DNA of 64,000 bases from contig JAKOMQ010000015.1 of assembly GCA_022241605.1 (NCBI GenBank), forward strand, positions 36,846 through 100,845, given 5' to 3'. The position numbers and the translations under genes are program-made. This document shows, piece by piece, positions 36,250-63,755 of this stretch. The notes beneath the pieces are model-generated. The model was not told the DNA's origin and searched no databases. It worked only from the letters and a program-made list of their open reading frames with translations. Numbering within the stretch: the stretch's first letter is position 1; each line of letters begins with the position of its first letter. The DNA is from Aquimonas sp. (GTDB lineage Bacteria; Pseudomonadota; Gammaproteobacteria; Xanthomonadales; Xanthomonadaceae).

Positions 36250-39018
36250 TCAGATCCCGATGGTCGCTGCCGCCAGCGCACTTGCCACACGCTCTCGCTC
36301 GGCCGCGAAGGTGTCGGCATCGCCAGCCAGTGGGCCCTCAGGGCCGTAGGCGACAGCGAGGGCGTCCAGTTCGGCCAGTGCCTCGGCGCTCTGGCCGATG
36401 CCGGCCAGGGCACGGGCTCGCTGGAAGCGCAGGGCCAGAATCTGCGGATTCTCGGCACCGTAGATGCCCGCCATGATCCCGATGGTGAGTTCGAGCAGGG
36501 GCAAGGCTTCGGCAGGGCGGCCCTGCAGCATGCGGAGCTTGGCCAGCATTTCCGAGGAATAGGCGTGGTCGTAGCTGCCCTCGCCGAAGATGTCGAGCAT
36601 GCGCTCAGCCACCTGCAGCAGTGCCGGCTCGGCCGCGTCGAGCTGCCCGATCTCGGCGCGCACCTCGGCCGCCGCGGCCAGGCTGGCCCAGGTGAGCCCG
36701 GCGCGCTCGCCGAGCGCGGTCAGAAACACCGCATGCGCTGTCTCGAAGGCGGTGATCGCCTGCTCTGGCTGATCGGTGGCTCGCGCCAGCTGGCCGCGGT
36801 TGAACCAGATCTGGCCGCGCTCGGCGCTGCCGTCGGGGAAGCACTGCTCGGCCTCATCGAAGGCCTGCGCCGCAGCGTCCGCATCGCCCATCCTGCGCAG
36901 CGCATCGCCCATCCGCAGCAGCTGTGCGCCCAACAGGGGATGCCCCGCGCCGACCTGATCGCGGGCGATCGCAATCGCCCGCTCGTACAGGGGCCGCGCC
37001 CGCTCGGGATAGCCGCCCCGCCGCAGCAGGTCGGCGCGCACCGACAGCGGCCTGACCAGCCGCGCATGGCCGGGCCCGAGCGCCGCTTCGAGGCCGTCCA
37101 CCACACGCACGAACACGGCATCCGCCTCGTCCAGACGCGCCGACTGCTCCAAGGCCGAGCCCACCAGATAAAGCGCCGACAGGCTGTCGGGATGCTCCGC
37201 TCCCAGGCGCTCCGCCGTGGCCGCATGTACGCGCTCACTCACCGCCAGCGCCTCGGCGGCGTCGCCGCGCAGCAGGCGGGTCCGGGCAAAGTGCACCTCC
37301 GCCTGCAGGGTGGTGGGGTGTTCAGGCCCCAGCCCGGCCCGCAGCACCGGCAGGGCCGCCTGCAGCAGCGGCTCGGCCACATCGATGCCGCCGCGCTGCA
37401 TCTCTGCCGCTGCCAGCAGCGCCGCCACCTCGGCGCTGCGCATCGAGGGGCGAGCCTCGCTCGCTGCGTACTCCGCGCTCAGGGCCTGCAGGGTCTGCAG
37501 CGCCTGCGGCACGTCGCCCAGCGCCAGGGCCAGCTTGCCGAGGTCGGCAAGCACCTCGCGCCGCAGCGCCGGATCCTGCGCGAGCTGCGCCTCCGCGCGG
37601 CCAATGCCGTCGGCCACCAGCTCGCGCGGGCTGCGCGCCTGTACCCGCGCCCGCGCCACCGGGTCGCTTTCCTCGAACAGCGAGACCAGGAAGTCCTTGA
37701 CCAGCTCGGCGCGCACGGCCTGGGCGCGCGCCACCTCGGCCTGCCAGAGCGCTGCGGCCAGCCCGCCCAGCAGGGACAGCAGCACCACCGCCGAGGCCGC
37801 TACGCCCCAGGCATGCCGCTGCACGAAGCGGCGCATGCGATAGCCCACGCTGTCGCGGCGGGCGCTGACCGGACGCGAGTCCAGCCAGGCGTGCAGGTCG
37901 GCGGCCAGCGCGGCGGCGCTCTGGTAGCGGCGCGCCGGCTCACTGCGCAGGGCGGTGGACAGGATCAGATCAAGATCACCGCGCAGCTCGCGCGCCAGCC
38001 GGCGACGGTCCACCGCTGCGCCATAGGCAGTGGCCAGCTCAGCCGGTTCGGCCTGGGCCAGCGCCCGGCTGGCCGCCTCGCGGGTGTCCTCGGCCTCGAT
38101 TCCCGCCGCCAGCGCGGAGACGTCGCTGGTGTTGCGCCGGTGCGGCAGCCGGCCGGTCAACAGCTGGTAGCCGATGACGCCCAGCGCATACACGTCGGTC
38201 GTGGTACCCACCGGCCGGCCGAGGATCTGCTCGGGTGCGGCATAGCCCGGCGAGAGCACGCGCACGCCGGTGGCGGTAACGGTCTCGCCTTCGGTCTGCT
38301 CCAGCAGTTTGGCGATACCAAAGTCCAGCAGATGCGGCTGACCTTGCGCATCGACGAGGATGTTGCCGGGCTTGAGGTCGCGGTGCACCACCAGCTGGCC
38401 GTGCGCGTAGGCCACGGCCTCGGCGATCCGCGCCAGCAGGCGCACCCGTCCGCGCAGATCCAGCTGCGTGCGCGCTGCAAAGCCGGTGATCGGCTCGCCC
38501 TCGACGCAGGCCATGGCGTACCAGGGCCGGCCATCCGGGCTCATGCCGCCGTCGAAGATGTGGACGATGTCCGGGTGGTCGAGGCGGGCCAGGATGCTGC
38601 GCTCCTGCAGGAAGCGGCGCAGGATGGCGCGGGTGTCCATGCCGCGCTTCAGCAGCTTGATCGCGACCTGCTGCTGGTAGGCGCCGTCCGCGCGCTCGGC
38701 GCGCCAGACCTCGCCCATGCCGCCTTCGCCGATGGGCTCGATCAGCCGATACGGGCCGAACGCGCTGCCGGCGGCGGTTTCCCAGGGCGCTCCGCGCGAG
38801 GCATCGGCCAGCTCCGGCGCCACCCGCCCGAGCGTGGCGTCGAGCGGGCCGGCGGCGGCTTCGTCGGCGCGCAGCAGCGCGCGCAGCTCGCGGGCCAGTT
38901 CGGGTTCACTGGCATCCAGCGCCTCCAGCCTGGCCTCGCGCTCGGCCGGATCGAGCTCCAGCAAATCGCCAAACAGCGCGGACACCCGCGCCCATACGGC
39001 TGGATCCTTTGCCGCCAT
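36250..39018 (-). CDS. Membrane Ser/Thr protein kinase with long C-terminal helical-repeat tail
   Basis: A 922-residue PknB-type kinase. A helical N-terminal region (1-80) precedes the kinase domain: P-loop 'IGEGGMGEVW' (96-105), ATP lysine K121, catalytic 'HRDLKPGN' (D214), 'DFG' (D232) and 'GYAAPEQILGRPVG'. One membrane helix follows near 390-415, then about 500 residues of TPR-like helical repeats ('ALAVSERVHAATAERLGAEH', 'AVFVRVVDGLEAALGPGHAR') facing the periplasm. All catalytic residues are present. It shares layout and wording with the kinase at 57425-60094. Substrate and signal are unknown; the tail suggests protein binding. Confidence 0.9.
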   Translation of the reverse strand: MAAKDPAVWARVSALFGDLLELDPAEREARLEALDASEPELARELRALLRADEAAAGPLDATLGRVAPELADASRGAPWETAAGSAFGPYRLIEPIGEGGMGEVWRAERADGAYQQQVAIKLLKRGMDTRAILRRFLQERSILARLDHPDIVHIFDGGMSPDGRPWYAMACVEGEPITGFAARTQLDLRGRVRLLARIAEAVAYAHGQLVVHRDLKPGNILVDAQGQPHLLDFGIAKLLEQTEGETVTATGVRVLSPGYAAPEQILGRPVGTTTDVYALGVIGYQLLTGRLPHRRNTSDVSALAAGIEAEDTREAASRALAQAEPAELATAYGAAVDRRRLARELRGDLDLILSTALRSEPARRYQSAAALAADLHAWLDSRPVSARRDSVGYRMRRFVQRHAWGVAASAVVLLSLLGGLAAALWQAEVARAQAVRAELVKDFLVSLFEESDPVARARVQARSPRELVADGIGRAEAQLAQDPALRREVLADLGKLALALGDVPQALQTLQALSAEYAASEARPSMRSAEVAALLAAAEMQRGGIDVAEPLLQAALPVLRAGLGPEHPTTLQAEVHFARTRLLRGDAAEALAVSERVHAATAERLGAEHPDSLSALYLVGSALEQSARLDEADAVFVRVVDGLEAALGPGHARLVRPLSVRADLLRRGGYPERARPLYERAIAIARDQVGAGHPLLGAQLLRMGDALRRMGDADAAAQAFDEAEQCFPDGSAERGQIWFNRGQLARATDQPEQAITAFETAHAVFLTALGERAGLTWASLAAAAEVRAEIGQLDAAEPALLQVAERMLDIFGEGSYDHAYSSEMLAKLRMLQGRPAEALPLLELTIGIMAGIYGAENPQILALRFQRARALAGIGQSAEALAELDALAVAYGPEGPLAGDADTFAAERERVASALAAATIGI

Positions 39019-39141
39019 GTCCTGCCCCCGCCTGCCCGGAACGCCGCCATCCTACCCGCTGCCGACGCTGCGATCCGCCGCGTTGAGCGGCACGGCGGCG
39101 CCAGCCCGCGCCCTCGGCGCCCAAGCCTGCGATCATGGCGC

Positions 39142-52604: not shown

Positions 52605-53552
52605 TTATGGCTCGAACCCGTCCTCAAAGATGCAGTCGTCATCGACCGCCGCGATTCGGCTGATGCGGCCTCCACTGTAGTGCGACAGATACAGGCTGCG
52701 GTCGGGGCCAAACTTGATGTCGTAGGGCGAGCCGGTGAACCCGGATCCGACATCGGTGATCTGACCCGGGGCATCGACCCGGTGCAGCGTGCCCGTCGCC
52801 TGCCGCAGCACCCAAAGTCCGCGCCCGAACGCACAGCCCGGGCCGAAGTCCAGCGCCACGCGCGACGGGAATTGCGCATAGCTCAGGATCAAGAGGCTGC
52901 CGTCGGCGGCAAAGACGGTGATCCGGCCATTGCCATCTGCTGCGAAGACGCGTCCGTCGGGCGCAATGGCAAGGTGGAAGGCCGTGCGGTTGTTCGGCAG
53001 TGTTGCGAACACCGTCGGCGCCTCCCCGGCCTCGCTGATCCAGATTTGTCCGGAGCCCGCGTCGGCGAAGAACAGGCGCCCCTGACGATCGAAGCGCATC
53101 TCGGAAGGGTTGGTCCAGGCCGTGGACGTCCACAGCTGCACAACCTGCTGATCGGGTCGAACCGCACTGATCGAGCCGCGCGTCGGCGAGGTCGAGTTGC
53201 CGCCGGTGAGGACGCTGCCCGGCACGCCGGACACCACGCCCAGCCCGTCGAAGACCACCGGATCAGGATCAGGTGTCTGCGTGTTTCCGTAGTTCTGGAT
53301 CGGCGCACCACCAGGCCCGATACGGATGAGAAACTGCGGCGCGATGCTGCCGACCGGCGGCGAGAGGTCGCGGCCGGCGTACAGGGTTCCATCCGGCGCA
53401 AACGCCAGAAACACGGGTCCCATCACCGGCTCCGCATAGGTGCTGACGGTGAAGCCGGGCACGGACTGGGCGGCGACGGGAAGCGAGGCCACCAGCAGGG
53501 CGGCCCACACTGCGCCGAATCGGGAAACCTGTGGCGCGCGGCAGGTGTTCAT
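52605..53552 (-). CDS. Secreted beta-propeller (SMP-30/NHL-like) protein with DGFE tag
   Basis: A 315-residue protein from ATG 53552 (GAGGAG upstream). The signal peptide ends near 'ASLPVAAQS'. The body is a six-blade-like propeller with repeated 'FAPDGTLYAGRDL', 'RFDRQGRLFFADAGSG', 'AIAPDGRVFAADGNGR' and 'KFGPDRSLYLSHYSGG' units, as in SMP-30/gluconolactonase and NHL families; no catalytic metal site is clear. It ends 'DDCIFEDGFEP', the C-terminal tag shared by many secreted proteins in this bacterial group. Ligand unknown. The tag suggests export or surface sorting, which is inference. Confidence 0.8.
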   Translation of the reverse strand: MNTCRAPQVSRFGAVWAALLVASLPVAAQSVPGFTVSTYAEPVMGPVFLAFAPDGTLYAGRDLSPPVGSIAPQFLIRIGPGGAPIQNYGNTQTPDPDPVVFDGLGVVSGVPGSVLTGGNSTSPTRGSISAVRPDQQVVQLWTSTAWTNPSEMRFDRQGRLFFADAGSGQIWISEAGEAPTVFATLPNNRTAFHLAIAPDGRVFAADGNGRITVFAADGSLLILSYAQFPSRVALDFGPGCAFGRGLWVLRQATGTLHRVDAPGQITDVGSGFTGSPYDIKFGPDRSLYLSHYSGGRISRIAAVDDDCIFEDGFEP

Positions 53553-53705
53553 GCGCTGCTCCTCGAAGATAACGAAGGGGGAGCCAAGCAACTCACTTGG
53601 CATAGCGGCCAGCAGTGCGGCATGTCATGCGCTGCGCTGCTGAAGTGGAGGAGGCTCATCCGGGCCGTCCATGGCCCAGTGGAGCGCTGGGAAATGCATC
53701 GGCGC

Positions 53706-55418
53706 TCAGCGCGGCTGCGCCAGCGCTGTCTCCAGGCGATCCAATCGCCGCCCGATCTCGGAAGACTCCACGCGCAGATCCACCAGCCCCTCGCGCTGCT
53801 CGCGCTGCCGCAAGGCAAGCTCGCGGGTGGCGGCCGTGGTCAGCACGTGGATATCGGACAGGTTGACCTGCAGCAGCGCCTCCGCGGCGTGTGCAGCCAC
53901 CTCCTCGACCGTGACCGCCGTGGGCCAGACCTCGGCGAGCTCCTGCGCGATGAAGCCGAAGTGCTCACGGTCTTCTGCGCCCAGCGTCGCGAGGTAGTCC
54001 GGACGATAGCGATAACGCACCGGGCGCAGCGCGAGCAGGGTTTCGACCGCCCCCTGCAGCGGCTCGATCCGGTGCTTGACCCGCGCGTCGGAAGTGGTGT
54101 CCCAGAGGCTCTGGCCATCGTTACGGCGGGCGCCGGCGGTTGCCCAGAAGACGCCGGGGTTGGGGATGACCAGGACGCCGCTGCCGACCCGCACGCCGGC
54201 ATCGCTGGTCGTCAACAGCACCGTGGTGAAGCCCGAGGAGACCACAAAGGGAAAGCGCTGCGCAGGCGCACGCACGCGGAACCAGTCGACGCTGTTGCCG
54301 GTGGTGTTGTCATCATGGGTGAACTGCACCGAGCCCTCGGCGCGCGCCAAAAACTGATTGGTGCCGCGGGAGACGAAGTCCTCGTTGCGGCTGTCGGCCC
54401 AGGCGAAGGTGCCCTGGTCACCCGCTTCGCCCACGCCCTCGATGTCGCCGCAGCGGAGCAAGGGAAGACCCTCCGCGCGTGGCCGGACCTTGGCCCGACG
54501 CCCGCCTGCCCAAGAGTAGTCGCCGCCCGCGCAGTTGAGCGCGCCACCGTCGGCCGTCGAGGAAACACCCGCTGCCCTGTTGCTGGCACCGCCCATCACG
54601 ACACCGGCTGCACCGCTGCCGATGTTGTCCTCGCCACCCAGTACGGTCGCCCTGTCGCTGTGCGCGTCGTTGGAGCGGCCTCCGCCGAGGGTGGTGGCTT
54701 CTCCTGACCAGACGATGTGACCCAGACCGCCCCCCATCACGCTGAACGCGGAGGCGATGGTGTCTCCAACCGCAACATTGCGCGCACCGCCGCGCACCGT
54801 TCCGTAGTGGACCGACATCAGATGGTTGCCGGCGGCGGGCTCGGCGGGGTCCCCGGCTACGGGGGAACCGCCTCCCGAAATGGTCGTCCCCCTGGCATTG
54901 CCACCGAGGACGTTCTGGGCGGCACCAGCACCGATATTGGCCGTGATGGTCGACCCGCCCACCGAACGTGGCTCGATCCACAGGCTGCGCTGACCGTTGC
55001 TGGCCAGAGTGAAAGACATGTCGTCTGTCGTGCCCACCGAGTGAACGCTGGCGCTGAGGCCAATGTTGCCGACGCTGCTCCAGCAGGCAGCAGGGGAACC
55101 ACCGGCTTCGAAGCCATCGGCGAACAGCCCGCCCGGGCCGCAGCCGGCAGCTGCGGCGGCTTTGGTCCCTGTGGCGATGGGCGCGCTCACGTTGGCATCC
55201 AGCGCCGCGGTTTGGTGCGCCTTGGCCAGCAGCACGAAGCGCCCATCTTCACTGGCAGCGTTTGGCCGCAGTTGGCCGTGCAACGCGTAGCGCGCCGCGG
55301 GCTCAGCGGCCAGGGCTGGCACAGCAAGCGCCAGCGCCAGGCCAAGCGCGGTGAGCACTCCAGGGCCGCGGCGGGATGCCAAGCATCCATGGCCCTGCCG
55401 AAACTTGCGGCCTGCCAT
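53706..55418 (-). CDS. Secreted YadA-head-like protein with S74 endosialidase-chaperone domain
   Basis: A 570-residue protein from ATG 55418. The signal peptide ends near 'LAVPALAAEP'; an internal 'GLFADGFEAGG' resembles the DGFE tag. The middle carries YadA-like head repeats with 'VLGGEDNIGSGAAGVVMGGA'-type turns. The C-terminal part has the peptidase S74 intramolecular chaperone: 'TTSDARVKHRIEPL' with the S443-D444 self-cleavage pair and 'DREHFGFIAQELAEVWPTAV', then a short coiled coil. In phage tail spikes this domain guides trimer formation and cuts itself off. No outer-membrane anchor is visible. It begins one base after the stop of its paralog, so the two are one operon. Confidence 0.82.
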   Translation of the reverse strand: MAGRKFRQGHGCLASRRGPGVLTALGLALALAVPALAAEPAARYALHGQLRPNAASEDGRFVLLAKAHQTAALDANVSAPIATGTKAAAAAGCGPGGLFADGFEAGGSPAACWSSVGNIGLSASVHSVGTTDDMSFTLASNGQRSLWIEPRSVGGSTITANIGAGAAQNVLGGNARGTTISGGGSPVAGDPAEPAAGNHLMSVHYGTVRGGARNVAVGDTIASAFSVMGGGLGHIVWSGEATTLGGGRSNDAHSDRATVLGGEDNIGSGAAGVVMGGASNRAAGVSSTADGGALNCAGGDYSWAGGRRAKVRPRAEGLPLLRCGDIEGVGEAGDQGTFAWADSRNEDFVSRGTNQFLARAEGSVQFTHDDNTTGNSVDWFRVRAPAQRFPFVVSSGFTTVLLTTSDAGVRVGSGVLVIPNPGVFWATAGARRNDGQSLWDTTSDARVKHRIEPLQGAVETLLALRPVRYRYRPDYLATLGAEDREHFGFIAQELAEVWPTAVTVEEVAAHAAEALLQVNLSDIHVLTTAATRELALRQREQREGLVDLRVESSEIGRRLDRLETALAQPR

Positions 55419-55419
55419 G

Positions 55420-57198
55420 TCAGCGGCCTCCCTGCGAACGCTGCAGCAGGGCCTCCATGCGCTCCAGACGTGCGCGCAGATTCGCATTCTCTCCGCGCAG
55501 GTCGACCAGTTCGGCCTCCAGCGCCTGCTGCTGGATCGCGAGCTCGCGCGCGGCGGCAGTGGTGAGCACCTGGATATCCGATGTGTTGACTCTCAGCAGG
55601 GGCGCGGTTTTCGGGTCAGCCTCTGGATCGACGCTGACCGCATTCGGCAGGGTCTCCAGCAGCTCCTGGGCGATGTAGCCGAGGTGCTCGCGATCCTCGC
55701 CGCCGTTGTCGGCGAGATACTCGGGGCGATAGCGGAAGCGCGTGGGACTGAGCGCCAGCAGCGCCTCGGTGGCGGCCTCGATGTCCTTGACCTGGTGCTT
55801 GACCCGCGCGTCCGAGGTCGTGTCCCAGGTGCTCTGGTTGTCGCTGCGCCGAGCGCCGCCCATCACCAGAAGCCCATTGGCGCCCGGCGTCGGTGGGACC
55901 AGGCCGGTGACATTGCCGATCCGCAGGCCGCCGTTGGCGAAACCGGTAAGCACGCCGGTGCCACCAACGCTCACGCGCAGCGGATCGCGACCCTCCGGCG
56001 CGCGGATGGTGAACCATGCGGCCGCGTTGTTGGAGACAAGGTTGTCGTGGGTGAACTGGACCGATCCCTGCGCCCGCACCAGGAACTGGTCCTCTCCACC
56101 GGAGATGAAGTTGCCGTCCTGGCTGTCGGCCCAGGCGAAGGTGCCGCGGTGGCCATTGACGCCCTCGGCGAACACGCCTGTACAACCCTCACCCGGCTCG
56201 CCGGATGCCGAACCCGGCCGGATCTTGGCGCGACGCCCGCCGGCCCAGGACCAGGCGCCACCGGCGCAATTCAGCGCGCCCCCGCCGACGGTGGCGGTGG
56301 AGCCGCTGGCGGTGTTGCTGGCGCCGCCGCCGACGGTGCTGCGGACACCGCTGGCGGTGTTCTGCAGCCCGCCGCCCACCGTCGAGGCCTCTGCGCTCGC
56401 AAGGTTTTCGCGGCCGCCAACCACGGTGCTGACGCGCCCGCTGGCGGTGTTGCCCGCGCCCCCGCCGACCGTGGCGAACGCGGCATCGGCCGCGTCAGGG
56501 TTGTCGTTGCCGGCGCGATTGCCGGCGCCGCCGCCGACGGTGCCGTAATGGTCAGTGACCCGGTTCGGGCCCTCGCCCGCCACCGCCGGATCCGAGTCCA
56601 CCGGCGCGCCACCGCCGCCCACCGTGGCGCCCCGCACGGAAGAGCCGATCGCGGCCGGACGATTGGCGCTGGAGCCGGCCACCACGTTGGCGCTGATGGC
56701 GGTGCCGGAGACCACGTTGGGGGTGATCCGCAGGCTCGCCATGTTGTTGGTGCGGATCACCAGCGGCACGTTGTCGGTGGTGCCGAGGAAGTTGACCAAG
56801 GCGCTGCTGCCGGCATCGCCCGTGGTGCTCCAGCAGGTGCCAATGCTGCCGCCCTTGGCCTGGCTGCGGCCGGGCAGGCCGCTGAAGGCCGCGCTGCCGG
56901 CCTCGCGTACAGCCACCTCCAGCCAGACCTCGTCGGCATTCCGCAGCGGCAGATCAAGGTCCAGCCGGAAGCGGCCCTCCACCACCTCCACCCCGTGGAA
57001 GGTGATCGGCTCGGCCAGCGCGGCACCGAGGATCTGATGTGTATACGCGCTGAGCTTCAAGTCATAGCGGCCATTGGCCGGCTGGCCGGCGTCATCGAGT
57101 CGGCCTTCGTAGACAAAGCTGGCGGCCAGCGCGGCAGGGCTCAACAGGGCGAACGTGAGGGTGGCAGTCAGGACGTGGGCCAATCGGGTAGGCGACAT
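55420..57198 (-). CDS. Secreted YadA-head-like protein with S74 endosialidase-chaperone domain (paralog)
   Basis: A 592-residue paralog of the next gene. The signal peptide ends near 'SPAALAASF'; an N-terminal beta domain follows (about 27-115, 'EGRLDDAGQPANGRYDLKLS'), then YadA-like head repeats including five 15-residue units 'TVGGGxxNTASGxxS' (243-317). The S74 domain has 'TTSDARVKHQVKDI' with S462-D463 and 'DREHLGYIAQELLETLPNAV', and ends in a coiled coil (about 555-592). Retention of the Ser-Asp pair implies self-cleavage after trimer assembly. Phage genes are absent, so this is a chromosomal surface or secreted fibre-like protein; its attachment is unknown. Confidence 0.84.
   Translation of the reverse strand: MSPTRLAHVLTATLTFALLSPAALAASFVYEGRLDDAGQPANGRYDLKLSAYTHQILGAALAEPITFHGVEVVEGRFRLDLDLPLRNADEVWLEVAVREAGSAAFSGLPGRSQAKGGSIGTCWSTTGDAGSSALVNFLGTTDNVPLVIRTNNMASLRITPNVVSGTAISANVVAGSSANRPAAIGSSVRGATVGGGGAPVDSDPAVAGEGPNRVTDHYGTVGGGAGNRAGNDNPDAADAAFATVGGGAGNTASGRVSTVVGGRENLASAEASTVGGGLQNTASGVRSTVGGGASNTASGSTATVGGGALNCAGGAWSWAGGRRAKIRPGSASGEPGEGCTGVFAEGVNGHRGTFAWADSQDGNFISGGEDQFLVRAQGSVQFTHDNLVSNNAAAWFTIRAPEGRDPLRVSVGGTGVLTGFANGGLRIGNVTGLVPPTPGANGLLVMGGARRSDNQSTWDTTSDARVKHQVKDIEAATEALLALSPTRFRYRPEYLADNGGEDREHLGYIAQELLETLPNAVSVDPEADPKTAPLLRVNTSDIQVLTTAAARELAIQQQALEAELVDLRGENANLRARLERMEALLQRSQGGR
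56248..56472 (-). repeat. Five in-frame 45-base repeats inside the S74 protein gene
   Basis: Units translate as TVGGGAGNTASGRVS, TVVGGRENLASAEAS, TVGGGLQNTASGVRS, TVGGGASNTASGSTA and TVGGGALNCAGGAWS. The exact 15-codon period means recombination between units would change the fibre length without a frameshift. Confidence 0.8.
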
Positions 57199-57424: not shown

Positions 57425-60094
57425 CTACCAGACCAAGCGCGTGATCGGGTCCAGCGCCATCGCTTCGGCGATGCGCGGACTGTCGCTCCCGAAGACCTGT
57501 TCCAGCATGTCCGCGGCCTGCCCGCGGCGTTGGGCGGCAAGGTCTTCGCGCCCGGCGGCCGCCTCGATATCGGCCAGGGTCAGCAGCAGCAGGGCGCGCT
57601 CGTCATGCACGGCAAGTCCGGCCCGGTCGAACTCGGGCAGCAGGGCATCGGACAGTACGCGGGCCCCCTCGTGGTCGCCGTTGATCTGGCGCAAGGCAGC
57701 CAGAACGTGGCGGGCGCGCAGATGCATCAGGGAGAGGCGGTCAGGCTCTGCCGCGACCGCAGGCTCCAGCAGGGCCAGCGCATCGTCGGAGCGGCCGAGC
57801 TGGGCGATCAGATACGCGCGACGCAGAGCCCCGCCAAGCTGGTTTCGTGCCAGCTCGGCCCGGAAGGCACTGCTGTTGGCGATGGCCTCGTCGAGGGCCA
57901 ACGCTTCGTCGAATCGTCCCAGCGCGGACAGCGCCCGCACACGCGTGTTGGCCAGACCGATCCCGATGGGGTGCTCCTCACCAAGGTACTCGCGCACGAC
58001 CGCGAGACCTTCTTCGGCCGATCGGATCGCCTCCTCGTTGCGTCGCTGGTTGCGCAGCAGAATCGCCTGCGCGTTACGGATCCAGGCGATCCGCGCGCGC
58101 GGCGCGGACGGGCTCGAAAGCAGCAGCGTCTCAGCGTGAGCGCAATCGGATTCCGCTTCCGCGTGCTGCGCCAGCAGGGTTCGCGCCACGCAGCGGTTGA
58201 GGTAGTCGACCGCGGAACGGACGTCCTCAACGCCATTGACGGCAATCCGATCACGAAGTGTGCCCTCGGCGATTTCCAGTCCAAGCGCATGGTCACCGGT
58301 TGCCGTGGCAAGAATGCCCATCGTGGTGCGGATCGCAAGTCGACGCGGCGCGACATCCGCGCCTGAAGCCTCCCCGACAGCGAGAATCTGCAGGGCCTCC
58401 TCGATCAGGGCGCGTGCCGGCTCGAACTCACGCGCACGCACGTGGACTGAGGCCCGGTCGTGCAAGGTGGACGCGAGCGAGCCCTCCGGCAGCCTACCCC
58501 TGCCCTCGCGATGTTCGACGAGCACCCGGTCCAACTCGCGAACTGCGGCCTCCTCTCGCCCCAACTCGACCAACACCTGGGCCAACTCCGACCTCAGCTC
58601 CAGGCGGGCCGAGGGGGCCACCGTCAACTCCTGCTCGATCCGCGCAAGCGTGGCCTCTACAAAGTCGCCGAGATTCAGATTGGCCCCATCCCGGGCCCGG
58701 CCCGGATTGCTGGAACCAAACGAGCGCACGAGAAAGCTCTGCATCGCGGTAGCCACCTCGGCCTGAGTGCGAGCCCGTGCCGTGGCGGCTTCAGCTTCGG
58801 CCAGCGCTGCCGTGGCAACCTTGGCTTGCCACAGCGCACTGCCCAGCCCACCGATCAGGGCCAACAATACGATGCCGGCCGCCGCCACGCCCCCCGCGTG
58901 CCGCCGCATGAAACGCCGCGTGCGATAGCCGGCGCTGTCTCCACGCGCGAGCACCGGGCGCTGCTGCAGCCAGGCCCGCAGCTCGGCGGCAAACTCGGCC
59001 GCACCGGCGTAGCGTCGCTCCGGCTCCGGCCGCAGGGCCATCGCGAGGATGTGGTCGAGATCGCCGCGCAACTGGCGGGCGAGCCGGACCGGGTCGAGGA
59101 CATGGCCGTAATGCCGGCCGATCTCGTCGGCATGGCTGGCAGCCACCGCCTGGCTGGCGCGCAGGCTCTGGGTCTCGCGGCTGACCTCACCGGCAAGGGC
59201 TGCCATCTCGCGGCTGCTGCGCTGGTGCGGCAGGCGCCCGCTGAGCAGCTCGTAGCCGAGTACGCCGAGCGCGTAGACGTCGGTGGCGGTGCTGACCGGC
59301 TCGCCCAGGATCTGCTCGGGTGCGGCATAGGCCGGAGAGAGCACGCGCACGCCGGTGCCGGTGAGCGTGTCCTCGCCGCTGTCCTCCAACAGTTTGGCGA
59401 TGCCGAAATCCAGCAGGCGCGGCCGCCCGGCGGCATCGATCATCACGTTGCCGGGCTTCAGATCGCGATGCACCACCAGCCGCGCATGCGCGTAGGCCAC
59501 GGCATCGGCGATCTGCGCCAGCAGCTCGACTCGGGCTCGAAGATCCAGCGAGCGGGCGCTGGCATGGCGAAGCAGGGTGTCACCCTCGACCCGTTCCATC
59601 GCGTACCAGGGGCGCCCGCCCTCGCTCATGCCGCCGTCCAGCAGCCGCACGATGCCGGGGTGCTGCAGCCGCGCCAGGATGTGCCGCTCCTGCACGAAGC
59701 GCCGGAGAATCGACTGGGTGTCCAGGCCGCGCTTCAGCAGCTTCAGTGCCACCCGCTGCTCATAGACGCCGTCGGTGCGCTGCGCGGCCCAGACTTCACC
59801 CATGCCGCCCTCGCCCAGCGGCTCCAGCAGGCGATAAGGGCCGAGCTGTTCACCGCGGCACGTTTCCCAATCGGCGTGACCGCGGGCAGCGCCGAGCTCG
59901 GTGGGCAGGCCCGGCAGGCTGCGATCCAGCAGACCTTCCGCTTCGGCATCAGCGGCCAGCATCCGCTGCAGCGCGGCTGCGAGTTCAGGCGACTCGGCCT
60001 CGATCACCACCATGCGGGCTTCGCGCGCCTGCGGGTCGAGCTCGATCAGCTCGGAGAACAGCGCCAGTCGGCGCGCCTGCGTTGCGTCACCCAT
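57425..60094 (-). CDS. Membrane Ser/Thr protein kinase with C-terminal helical-repeat tail (paralog)
   Basis: An 889-residue kinase with the same plan as 36250-39018. A helical N-terminal region is followed by 'LGEGGMGEVWAAQR' (93 onward), K118, 'HRDLKPGN' (D211), 'DFG' (D229) and 'YAAPEQILGEPVS'. A membrane helix near 385-410 ('AAAGIVLLALIGGLGSALW') precedes about 480 residues of TPR-like repeats ('AESDCAHAETLLLSSPSAPR', 'GRSDDALALLEPAVAAEPDR'). All catalytic residues are present. It is upstream of the S74 operon on the same strand with about 225 bases between, so control of surface-protein expression or assembly is a possibility, not shown. Confidence 0.9.
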   Translation of the reverse strand: MGDATQARRLALFSELIELDPQAREARMVVIEAESPELAAALQRMLAADAEAEGLLDRSLPGLPTELGAARGHADWETCRGEQLGPYRLLEPLGEGGMGEVWAAQRTDGVYEQRVALKLLKRGLDTQSILRRFVQERHILARLQHPGIVRLLDGGMSEGGRPWYAMERVEGDTLLRHASARSLDLRARVELLAQIADAVAYAHARLVVHRDLKPGNVMIDAAGRPRLLDFGIAKLLEDSGEDTLTGTGVRVLSPAYAAPEQILGEPVSTATDVYALGVLGYELLSGRLPHQRSSREMAALAGEVSRETQSLRASQAVAASHADEIGRHYGHVLDPVRLARQLRGDLDHILAMALRPEPERRYAGAAEFAAELRAWLQQRPVLARGDSAGYRTRRFMRRHAGGVAAAGIVLLALIGGLGSALWQAKVATAALAEAEAATARARTQAEVATAMQSFLVRSFGSSNPGRARDGANLNLGDFVEATLARIEQELTVAPSARLELRSELAQVLVELGREEAAVRELDRVLVEHREGRGRLPEGSLASTLHDRASVHVRAREFEPARALIEEALQILAVGEASGADVAPRRLAIRTTMGILATATGDHALGLEIAEGTLRDRIAVNGVEDVRSAVDYLNRCVARTLLAQHAEAESDCAHAETLLLSSPSAPRARIAWIRNAQAILLRNQRRNEEAIRSAEEGLAVVREYLGEEHPIGIGLANTRVRALSALGRFDEALALDEAIANSSAFRAELARNQLGGALRRAYLIAQLGRSDDALALLEPAVAAEPDRLSLMHLRARHVLAALRQINGDHEGARVLSDALLPEFDRAGLAVHDERALLLLTLADIEAAAGREDLAAQRRGQAADMLEQVFGSDSPRIAEAMALDPITRLVW

Positions 60095-60256: not shown

Positions 60257-61936
60257 CTACTGTTGCTCGAACGCTCCGCTGTCGCAGGGCCCTGCTGCGC
60301 GCGGCATGCCGCGCACGTCCACCGGCAGGCAGTGCTCGCTGCGGCCCAGCCCACGCTGCGGCCTGTGCGCGCCGTCGCTGGGCCAGCCGACCACCGGGAA
60401 AGCCCCGCCGAAGCTGCCAATCTGCACGCCCAGCGCGTTGTCCCCACTCACGGACTGGTCAAGCCCGGGCAGCTGCGGGCAGGGCCAGCCGCGCGGGCCG
60501 TACTGGTTGCCGCCCAGGCTGATGATGCCGCCGTGGGGAGCATGGCAGAGCTCGGCCACCAGGCTGTTCGAGAGGCGCATCTGGGCGGTGGGGAATTGGG
60601 TGCTGTAGTCCTTGACCAGCGCGCGATTCATCGCGGGGGAGAGCAGCAGCGGCGACTGCTCGAACACGCTGATGTGGCGAAGGTCGGCGCTGCCGATGCT
60701 GTAGACGGCGGTGGCACCCGGCAGCTGCTGGTAGCGCTGGCCGCTGGAGAAGCTGGCGTTTTCGATGTGCACATCAGGGCCGGCGTTGTGAACGGCAGCG
60801 CCGCCGTTGAGGCTGAGGTTGCCCTGGAAGGAGGTCTGCGCGATCAGACGGGTGCCGTTGCTGACGCTGAGCGCGCTGCCGGGATCTGCGAGATGAATCG
60901 CGCCGCCGCCGCCTGCCAGCGCCTGGTTGCCGCTGAACCAGCTGTTCTCGACGTGCAGATCGCGTCTGACATGGAGGGCGCCGCCCAGATTGGCGCGATT
61001 GCCTTGGAAGATCAGCCCGGTTATGTCCACAGCTCCTGACGCGAGCATGGTGTTGCCCAAGGAGGAGACGGCACCGCCATCGTTGCCTGCCTGGTTGTCC
61101 ACGATCCGGAACTTGCCGCTGCTGCTCAGTCGCAGATTGTGCATACCGAGGCTGATCGCGCCACCGTGTGACCCGGCAGCGTTGTTGCTGAACTCGGTGT
61201 CGGCCAAGGCCTGCCATTCCACCCAGTTGCGGCTGTCCCAAATGTTTCCGCCAACAGCAAGCGCGCCGCCCGTGCCGATGGCCTGATTGCCGCGCACAGC
61301 CGTCTTGCTTGAGCTGACCTGGACTCGAAGCAGTGCCATGGCACCGCCATGCGAAGCCGAGTTGCCCTGCATGACCACGTCATCCAGCTGCAACGCTCCG
61401 TCGTAGTAGAAGAGCGCGCCGCCGCTCATCTCCGACTGGCACTGTTCGAGGATCATCCTGGTGAGGCTCAAGCTGCCGAAGCCACCACCGGCCTGAACGC
61501 AGCCACCGTGCCAGGCATTGCGGCCGTGACTGATGCGCAGGTGCTCCAGGCTCACCTTTCGACCCAGCGTATCCACACGGATCAGCGGCTGCGCATGACC
61601 CACGGCGATGGCGCTCCAGCGCAGATGCGAGGGGGTCTTGCCGATGCCGATCAGGCTCATGTCGGCACGCAGCTGCAGGGCCCCGCGGGTATCGTCGTTG
61701 GGCTGTGAGGCCAACGGCTTCCGGCTGAGCTGATAGGTGCCCGATGGCAACAGGATCCGCACCGGCTTGACCGAGGCGTTGGCGGCCAGCACCGCCGAGC
61801 GCAGGCTGCAGTCGCGCGGGCTGCAGGCATTCGGCACCGGATCATCGAAGCGGGTGACCAGCAGTTCGCTGGCGGCGGCCAGGCCAGGGCTGAGGGCGAG
61901 TGCTGCGCACAGCAGGGTGATGCGTGGGGTGGACAT
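60257..61936 (-). CDS. Secreted right-handed beta-helix (polymorphic outer-membrane-like) protein
   Basis: A 559-residue secreted protein from ATG 61936 (the track ORF adds 168 upstream residues on the far side of the true signal peptide). The signal peptide ends near 'SPGLAAASE'. It then shows 'CSPRDCSLRSAVLAANASVK', typical of this class, and repeated beta-helix turns with 'GGAxxL' and 'NxxxxxGGA' ('NSASHGGAMALL', 'NQAIGTGGALAV', 'NNAAGSHGGAISL', 'NQALAGGGGAIHL'). It closes with 'GPCDSGAFEQQ', the common C-terminal end of such proteins. No catalytic site is recognisable. Role unknown; surface or secreted localisation is inferred. Confidence 0.82.
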   Translation of the reverse strand: MSTPRITLLCAALALSPGLAAASELLVTRFDDPVPNACSPRDCSLRSAVLAANASVKPVRILLPSGTYQLSRKPLASQPNDDTRGALQLRADMSLIGIGKTPSHLRWSAIAVGHAQPLIRVDTLGRKVSLEHLRISHGRNAWHGGCVQAGGGFGSLSLTRMILEQCQSEMSGGALFYYDGALQLDDVVMQGNSASHGGAMALLRVQVSSSKTAVRGNQAIGTGGALAVGGNIWDSRNWVEWQALADTEFSNNAAGSHGGAISLGMHNLRLSSSGKFRIVDNQAGNDGGAVSSLGNTMLASGAVDITGLIFQGNRANLGGALHVRRDLHVENSWFSGNQALAGGGGAIHLADPGSALSVSNGTRLIAQTSFQGNLSLNGGAAVHNAGPDVHIENASFSSGQRYQQLPGATAVYSIGSADLRHISVFEQSPLLLSPAMNRALVKDYSTQFPTAQMRLSNSLVAELCHAPHGGIISLGGNQYGPRGWPCPQLPGLDQSVSGDNALGVQIGSFGGAFPVVGWPSDGAHRPQRGLGRSEHCLPVDVRGMPRAAGPCDSGAFEQQ

Positions 61937-62096
61937 GGGTGTGGTTCCGTGGCGGGTGTGGTTCTGTCCACGCAAGCCGGGGGCGGCAGGGGCCAACGCC
62001 ATCGAGATGCCCTGCGCTGGCCCCCGATGCGCTCGATTTGCGTGGTCCAGCACGCGGCTGACTGCAGCTGCAGCCATCACCACGGGAGATCCGACC

Positions 62097-62918
62097 ATGC
62101 ACAAGCACACCCTCACCGCCCTGCTCGCCCTGCTGCTGGGCAGCGCCACTGCCCACGCCCAGACCGAGGTCCGCGGCCATCTGCAGTTCGACGGCGAACG
62201 CAGCGCCGCCGTTGGCGGCATCGCCTGGATCGAGGACGAGGTCCTGCAGCTGGTGCTCGCCGATGTCGAACCCGATATGGACGCCATCGCCGCGGACGGA
62301 CAGCTGGACCGGATGGACCTGCTGCAGCTGGGCGGGCGCCAGCTTGAGCTGCGCATCGACCCTGAGAGCGGCGAGCTCTGGGGACTCACGCTCAGCCAGC
62401 CCGGCGAGGTGCTGAGTGGAGGCCATGAAGGCATGGACACGGCGCTGGTGCTCTCGACGTCCGGGCCATGGGCCGTGGGTGATCAGGTCAAGGGCCGCTT
62501 CGACGACGGCAGCCATGCCATCGAGTTCGATCTTGCCGTGCTGGGCACCGAATTGCCCAAGCCGGGCACGCCATTGCCCGCCGATGGCGGCGCTCCCGGC
62601 GCGGTGTTCCGAGCCATGGTGGAGGCGATTGGACGTGGCGACCTGGAAATCCTACTCACCAGCCAGGCGGCGGCCAACCGTGCCGAAATGCAGGAGGCTG
62701 TCGACGAGGGATTCGGCGCCAGCCTGATCGCCCGCGCGCAGAGCTTCACCGTCAAGCCCGAGGGCCTGCAGCTCCACGGCGGCCGCGCCACGGCGCAACG
62801 CGCGTGGGTGGACTACAGCGGCCGCGATGGTTTCGGCGGCACCCGCGGCACCGCCAGCCTGGTGATGGAAGACGGGGCCTGGAAGTTCGAGCAAACCGAC
62901 TCGGTGGCGACGGACTAG
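62097..62918 (+). CDS. Secreted protein of unknown function (first of a paralog pair)
   Basis: A 273-residue protein from ATG 62097, preceded by GGGAG. The signal peptide ends near 'SATAHAQTE'. The N-terminal domain (about 20-150) contains 'GGIAWIEDEVLQLVLADVEP' and 'GGRQLELRIDPESGELWGLT'; the C-terminal half has 'GAVFRAMVEAIGRGDLEILL' and a lipocalin/NTF2-like ending 'ASLVMEDGAWKFEQTD'. No family is recognised with confidence. The next gene repeats its N-terminal half with the same motifs. It is divergent from the beta-helix gene across 160 bases. Confidence 0.75.
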   Translation: MHKHTLTALLALLLGSATAHAQTEVRGHLQFDGERSAAVGGIAWIEDEVLQLVLADVEPDMDAIAADGQLDRMDLLQLGGRQLELRIDPESGELWGLTLSQPGEVLSGGHEGMDTALVLSTSGPWAVGDQVKGRFDDGSHAIEFDLAVLGTELPKPGTPLPADGGAPGAVFRAMVEAIGRGDLEILLTSQAAANRAEMQEAVDEGFGASLIARAQSFTVKPEGLQLHGGRATAQRAWVDYSGRDGFGGTRGTASLVMEDGAWKFEQTDSVATD

Positions 62919-63233
62919 GTTCTCTTGCAACGGCGCCGCGGTCCGCGACCGTCTCGGAGCAGCGCGACCGCAAGCCGCTGCCCACCTCAAAGACCGGCAT
63001 CGAGTGCGCCTCGGCGCACCTTGGGGTGTTCGGCCTCGCTCCGGTGGCGCTCATGGGAGGGTTCGGAAAACCCGAAACGCGACCCGTGCGCAGGCCCAAG
63101 CAGGCGCCACTGCTGCCGGCTCGGGGCTGGCCGGGCAGCGGCAGCCGTCGGCGATGGCCCCTGGAGGGACTGCATTGCGTGGTCTCAACAGCGGCGAACT
63201 GCAGCCGCGTCTGTCGTCCCGGGAGAACAAGCC
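62919..63233. other. Gap of about 315 bases between the paralogs
   Basis: No gene seen. It holds a small hairpin near 63062-63076 (TTCGG/CCGAA around an A-rich loop), and GGGAG just before the next ATG. Otherwise nothing recognisable. Confidence 0.4.
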
Positions 63234-63755
63234 ATGCGAATCCACGCCCGCGTCACCCTGTTGACCCTTCTCCTGGCCTGCGTGCCAGCCCGAGCGGAAG
63301 TCAGCGGGCACCTGCATTTGGGCGACCTGCGCAGCCCGGTCGTCGGCGGCATCGCCTGGATCGAAGATGGCGTGCTGCTGATCGTGCTCGCCGACACCCT
63401 GCCCGACACGCGGGCCCTCTCCGACGACGGCCGTCTGGATGTCATGGACCTGCAGCGTATGGGCGGTCGGCAGCTGGAGCTGCGCATCGACCCGCGGCGC
63501 GGTGAAGTCCTCGGTTACACCCTCAGCCAGCCCGGCGCTGTCCGCAGCGGCGGCTACGAGGACATCGAGGCGGGCCTGGTCCTCACGCGCTCCGCCCCAT
63601 GGCGCGTCGGGGATCGGGTCGCGGGCCACCTCAGGTACGGCCGCCATGCCGTCGAATTCGATCTGCCGGTGTCCGGTTCCGAAATTGACACAGGCGAGGT
63701 GACCTGCCGGCTTTTTCAGGACCACCGATTAGTTGAGGGAGGCTCGGTGGGTTGA
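63234..63755 (+). pseudogene. Second paralog, truncated by an IS3-family insertion
   Basis: ATG 63234 follows GGGAG. Native coding runs to about 63700 and matches the 62097-62918 protein: signal peptide to 'LACVPARAE', 'GGIAWIEDGVLLIVLADTLP', 'GGRQLELRIDPRRGEVLGYT', 'HAVEFDLPVSGSE'. After 'EIDTGE' the reading enters the insertion element and stops at TGA 63753-63755. The paralog has about 100 more residues, so the C-terminal domain is lost. The rest may lie beyond the element outside the window. Confidence 0.8.

Follow-up and report, generated by a model that had tools for sequence, protein, structure and literature searches.

The window analysed here is the whole 64,000-nucleotide stretch of contig DNA, and its list of open reading frames (ORFs) contains two tandem minus-strand ORFs, referred to as A and B (Table 1). 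The ORF listed for B is 593 aa long and overlaps A. Inspection of the sequence placed the start of B at the ATG at 55418, one base past the TGA of A (..GGGAGGCCGCTGACATG) and behind a GGGAGG ribosome-binding-like site. This ATG is probably the true start, which corrects B to 570 aa. Because it follows the stop codon of A by one base and is preceded by the GGGAGG site, the A/B pair looks translationally coupled. Only two S74 domains were found in the genome bin, which is 75% complete, and they are those of A and B.

Table 1. Fibre genes A and B, their parts and the adjoining genes (positions in the window)
Feature	Position	Strand	Remarks
Fibre protein A	55420..57198	-	592 aa: signal peptide, N-terminal beta domain, beta-roll head, stalk, S74 chaperone and helical end
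A, signal peptide, residues 1-25	57124..57198	-	read from sequence; predicted helix 4-18; signal-like start in homologues
A, N-terminal beta domain, residues 26-114	56857..57123	-	pLDDT mostly 86-93; common to other secreted proteins of the order
A, left-handed beta-roll (YadA/UspA1-type) head repeats	56209..56541	-	3pr7 match, E 7.4e-16; fold search
A, S74 intramolecular chaperone	55423..55815	-	predicted self-cleavage T461/S462; dyad S462-K467
Fibre protein B	53706..55418	-	570 aa: signal peptide, small DGFE module, head, S74
B, small-partner module, residues 39-104	55107..55304	-	homologous to stand-alone DGFE proteins; FADGFE end at 55107-55124
B, S74 chaperone	53709..54092	-	dyad S443-K448
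Secreted beta-propeller-like protein	52605..53603	-	C-terminal IFEDGFEP tag (motif 52611-52628); 102 bp downstream of B
Ser/Thr kinase	57425..60094	-	one transmembrane helix (read from sequence), C-terminal TPR region; 226 bp upstream of A

The domain layout proposed by the initial annotation was largely confirmed. The Pfam model Peptidase_S74 matched both proteins above its curated cut-off of 22 bits (A, E 6.6e-14, 52.4 bits; B, E 5.9e-13, 49.3 bits), and the YadA-type head was recovered in a search run for A as a match to Moraxella UspA1. Signal peptides can be read from the sequence of both proteins. No Pfam model of a YadA anchor matched A or B, as the annotation had also stated, and the C-terminus of A consists of S74 and a long helix. 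The collagen-like repeats were not found: the longest Gly-X-Y run has 3 triplets, and the repeats are instead beta-roll units of about 15 aa of the type TVGGGxxNTASGxxS.

The AlphaFold2 monomer of A contains a confident N-terminal beta domain (26-114), a beta-roll (about 260-380) and S74 with the C-terminal helix (about 465-590). Stalks of low confidence were predicted for A (399-459) and B (362-437), and the monomer model of B is poor outside the head and S74 (pLDDT 59). The low-confidence stalk of A may correspond to the part that forms an intertwined trimer in solved S74 proteins. When the model of A was searched with Foldseek, the ICA domain of MYRF (Myelin regulatory factor) was the best PDB match (7dc3, probability 1.00, TMt 0.67, E 2.7e-05); UspA1 was also found, and the endosialidase chaperones 3gw6 and 3gud were weaker matches. 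The C-terminus of A also matches MYRF outside this fold comparison, and there is a weak match to the distal subunit of a T-even-type long tail fibre (6f45).

The intact catalytic pair had been read as Ser-Asp. The Ser was upheld and the Asp was not: both proteins carry SDARVK, and the pair is a Ser-Lys dyad. Ser and Lys are invariant across 35 aligned homologues, whereas the Asp after the Ser varies and can be Ser. About a quarter of the fibre homologues have SSxxxK, with Ser for Asp after the nucleophile (e.g. L094, L100, L121). S587/K592 of MYRF is equivalent to S911/K916 of endoNF, and cleavage occurs immediately before the Ser (PMC8326128). Judged by their motifs, A and B are predicted to cleave themselves between T and S of TSDARVK, which would release C-terminal fragments of 131 aa from A and 128 aa from B.

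The distribution of the family was examined by scanning genome contigs. With a single sequence no relatives were recovered; with an alignment, the full-length family of A was found in 413 genome-contig stretches, which are cellular and come from Lysobacterales, Wenzhouxiangella, Phycisphaerae, Verrucomicrobia, Chloroflexi, Kapabacteria and others. Matches to A occur in 90 of 200 genomes of the order, often several in tandem, and some of them cover the head only. The signal-like start and the N-terminal domain are kept in the homologues listed. An A-type N-terminal domain is also present in ORFs without head and S74, whose matches are restricted to model positions of about 5-120; such matches make up most of those listed for genome G152. 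Viral contigs gave one match only (L204), in which the fibre gene lies outside the integrase and phage-type genes and, from the gene order, looks like host flank. Phage genomes match A over its C-terminal part only.

These data bear on whether A and B are prophage tail fibres, remnant or domesticated, that have lost their phage context by decay and have no present cellular role. S74 and PHROG tail-fibre profiles do match, and S74 proteins that lack a signal peptide and look like true phage fibres also occur in the genomes of the family (e.g. L008, L009). However, the homologues that match over the full length, signal peptide and N-terminal domain included, are widespread and cellular, only the C-terminal part is common to phages, and signal peptides would be out of place on phage virion proteins. 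The dyad is intact, and the codon-position GC of the fibre genes is like that of the neighbouring genes. No phage structural (virion) genes were detected among the flanking ORFs tested around A and B, in agreement with the initial annotation. A prophage origin of this kind is largely refuted by the family distribution, with host-flank gene order in the sole viral contig, and we regard it as very improbable. That A and B are cellular, exported, S74-processed fibres is well supported by the family distribution, the invariant dyad, the signal peptides and the precedent of the Bdellovibrio fibres discussed below; to this extent, the secreted or surface fibre suggested by the annotation is supported.

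The N-terminal region of B differs from that of A. Between signal peptide and head, B does not contain the N-terminal domain of A but a module that ends in LFADGFE, an internal motif missed at first. The module matches stand-alone ORFs of about 90-130 aa that adjoin fibre genes in relatives (hhalign probability 97.8%; profile E 7.3e-14). An alignment of 18 of these small partners showed that they begin with a signal-like segment, contain DGRFxL repeats and a single invariant Cys, and end in F..GFE; no Pfam family matched them above cut-off. After the DGFE tag, B continues directly into the head, without a second signal peptide or base domain. A mere loss of the stop codon would be expected to leave such remnants, so the small protein appears to have replaced the base domain of B. 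This natural fusion argues for a physical partnership of the small protein with the fibre. The fused form was seen in this genome bin only. In genome G037 the gene order is kinase, S74, small protein, S74, all unfused, and in the window it is kinase, S74-A, small protein plus S74-B.

To quantify the association, genes ending in Fx[D/N]GFE were counted in the neighbourhood of 122 deduplicated fibre genes. The interval from -500 to +300 bp contained 45 of them (6.57 per 10 kb), compared with 0.22-0.34 per 10 kb at 1-8 kb. At the loci of DGFE-using Lysobacterales, such a gene is directly adjacent to 39 of the 52 evaluable fibre genes, always on the same strand; 35 of these neighbours are small (<200 aa), and seven loci are S74-small-S74 sandwiches. 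A profile of the small family, built from fibre-adjacent members, was searched against 18 whole genomes, and 39 of its 44 matches lay within 300 bp of a fibre match on the same strand. These sequence data identify a new, conserved, DGFE-tagged small partner beside the S74 fibres of Lysobacterales, which is fused to the fibre in B. Comparison by hhalign gives no more than a hint of homology between it and the N-terminal domain of the fibre (probability 54%). Fibres are also present in genomes that do not use the DGFE tag, such as G241 (5 fibre matches, 3 DGFE matches and no small partner), so that fibre function in general does not depend on the tag. At L105, L111, L119, L156 and other loci, the small gene next to the fibre encodes a second kind of partner, SYxxPRQSIDGG...GTIGQPDAG...GGFHR...FANGFE; a relationship with the first kind is probable (hhalign 98%, to which the signal peptide and the tag contribute).

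The tag itself extends far beyond the fibres. As a DNA pattern, FxDGFE was found 29 times in this genome versus 1 for the reversed control, mostly 0-6 aa before a stop codon. For Fx[D/N]GFE the counts were 51 versus 2 in this genome, and up to 113 in G152; elsewhere in the class, as far as sampled, the motif does not exceed background, and the same applies to much of the window's own family. Dozens of secreted proteins carry Fx[D/N]GFE as a tag at the C-terminus, and within the class sampled its use is confined to parts of this order. In some proteins the motif stands just after the signal peptide (L025, L026, L088). No relevant description of the tag was found in the literature searched, and no model for it was found in Pfam or NCBIfam. 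S74 fibres were considered as the reason for the tag and rejected: genome G041 has 68 tag matches, no small partner and 2 weak fibre-family matches.

Fx[D/N]GFE resembles the PEP-CTERM, GlyGly-CTERM and MYXO-CTERM sorting tags in being a short signature at the C-terminus of dozens of secreted proteins within a restricted clade. In contrast to these, it has no transmembrane segment or basic tail (0-6 aa to the stop in most), it is also located just after signal peptides or inside B, and no processing enzyme is known. One tentative idea, which we hold to be possible but doubtful, is that the motif is an order-specific docking or sorting tag, with the small DGFE subunit as the adaptor that joins S74 fibres to the respective surface-display machinery. 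This would be a barrel-free way of anchoring trimeric adhesins in Gram-negative bacteria.

The membrane Ser/Thr kinase that had been noted upstream of A was verified (Pkinase, E 1.7e-40). The synteny of S74 genes with DGFE-tagged proteins and kinases, which had been put forward as a check, was clear for the former and weak for the latter. Within 1 kb of fibres, 12 kinases were counted over 218 kb, about 0.55 per 10 kb with some counts sharing one locus, compared with 0.09-0.28 at 1-8 kb. The order kinase-S74 recurs in G037, G101 and the Phycisphaerae contig L146. This few-fold enrichment close to fibres and the recurring order would fit a kinase-centred signalling module, in which fibre assembly would be sensed or controlled by the TPR kinase, and the fibres would be signal components rather than adhesins. 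But the majority of fibre genes lack a kinase in their vicinity, these genomes encode 13-63 such kinases each, and the orientation varies, so that this module seems improbable to us. On the same grounds, the kinase was rejected as an obligate fibre partner; it is a possible regulator of the operon and not a defining part.

Other genes of the window were also noted. A second TPR Ser/Thr kinase (36253-39051, minus strand), with a kinase domain 64% identical to that of the kinase upstream of A, has no adjoining fibre gene. Upstream of the latter kinase, on the same strand, lies a secreted protein (60257-62440, minus strand) whose N-terminus is CSLREA-like and whose repeats are of the Chlamydia PMP type. 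Two neighbouring secreted, paralogue-like proteins (61737-62918 and 62925-63755, plus strand; ...VGGIAWIEDxVLxxVLAD...) have no Pfam match.

Among known systems, the closest is the S74 subgroup of the MAT (mosaic adhesive trimeric) fibres of Bdellovibrio bacteriovorus, e.g. Bd3182; in this family, cleavage at the Ser has been demonstrated, as has a surface or vesicle location (PMC10769870). The MAT family has a mosaic pattern, S74 with SDxxxK and a beta-rich domain of about 130 aa directly after the signal peptide (PMC10769870). The likeness includes cellular genes that encode a signal peptide, then a beta-rich domain and a fibre, a C-terminal S74 with SDxxxK, the lack of a YadA-type anchor, and an N-terminal domain joined to varied C-terminal parts. 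Different from MAT, the shaft here is a YadA/UspA1-type beta-roll head, a small DGFE partner gene and a partner-fibre fusion are present, and no predatory context is known. The base domain is about 90 aa in A and about 130 aa in MAT. Since the N-terminal domains were set against each other by description only, A and B are described as working like MAT fibres and not as MAT members.

Other relatives share single parts. Phage tailspike and tail-fibre chaperones (endosialidase, T5 pb1) have the S74 domain, the Ser-Lys dyad and the predicted fold in common with A and B, but A and B carry an export signal, have no phage genes nearby and are matched by phages at the C-terminus only. The trimeric autotransporter adhesins YadA and UspA1 share the left-handed beta-roll head repeats; A and B have S74 where the C-terminal outer-membrane anchor of these adhesins sits, and their opposite end is presumably cell-proximal. 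MYRF, which has the same Ser-Lys self-cleavage motif besides the fold, is a eukaryotic membrane transcription factor.

Taken together, we consider it probable that A and B are the bacterium's own exported trimeric fibres, which work like the S74-subgroup MAT fibres and use the DGFE subunit as an adaptor at their base. Following export by Sec, the S74 domains at the C-termini would trimerise and template the folding of the stalk and the beta-roll head. They would then cut themselves off by the Ser-Lys dyad (in B at 442/443), leaving a locked trimer made up of an N-terminal base domain and a shaft for recognition or adhesion. The partner of the fibre in this order would be the small secreted subunit with C-terminal Fx[D/N]GFE that is encoded beside the fibre gene. 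The subunit may sit at the N-terminal base of the fibre as an adaptor docking to the machinery that handles DGFE-tagged secreted proteins. Its fusion to B, where it replaces the base domain, raises the possibility that A and B combine into a paired or mixed base.

The fibres could also be autocleaved and then stay soluble, either periplasmic or released, without surface anchoring, and the DGFE protein would be an unrelated secreted neighbour in the operon. This is compatible with the absence of an outer-membrane anchor and with the occurrence of DGFE on many unrelated secreted proteins, but an unrelated neighbour does not agree with a small family that is nearly confined to fibre loci and fused to the fibre in B. 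We therefore judge it unlikely, and favour exported fibres with a DGFE base adaptor.

Outside phages, the experimental precedent for S74 fibres is Bdellovibrio, in which the surface element that holds the N-terminal domain has not yet been named. A conserved small partner that is naturally fused to the fibre in one genome is a candidate for such a holding element in another lineage. FxDGFE marks dozens of secreted proteins per genome and thus raises a testable question on protein sorting in Lysobacterales.
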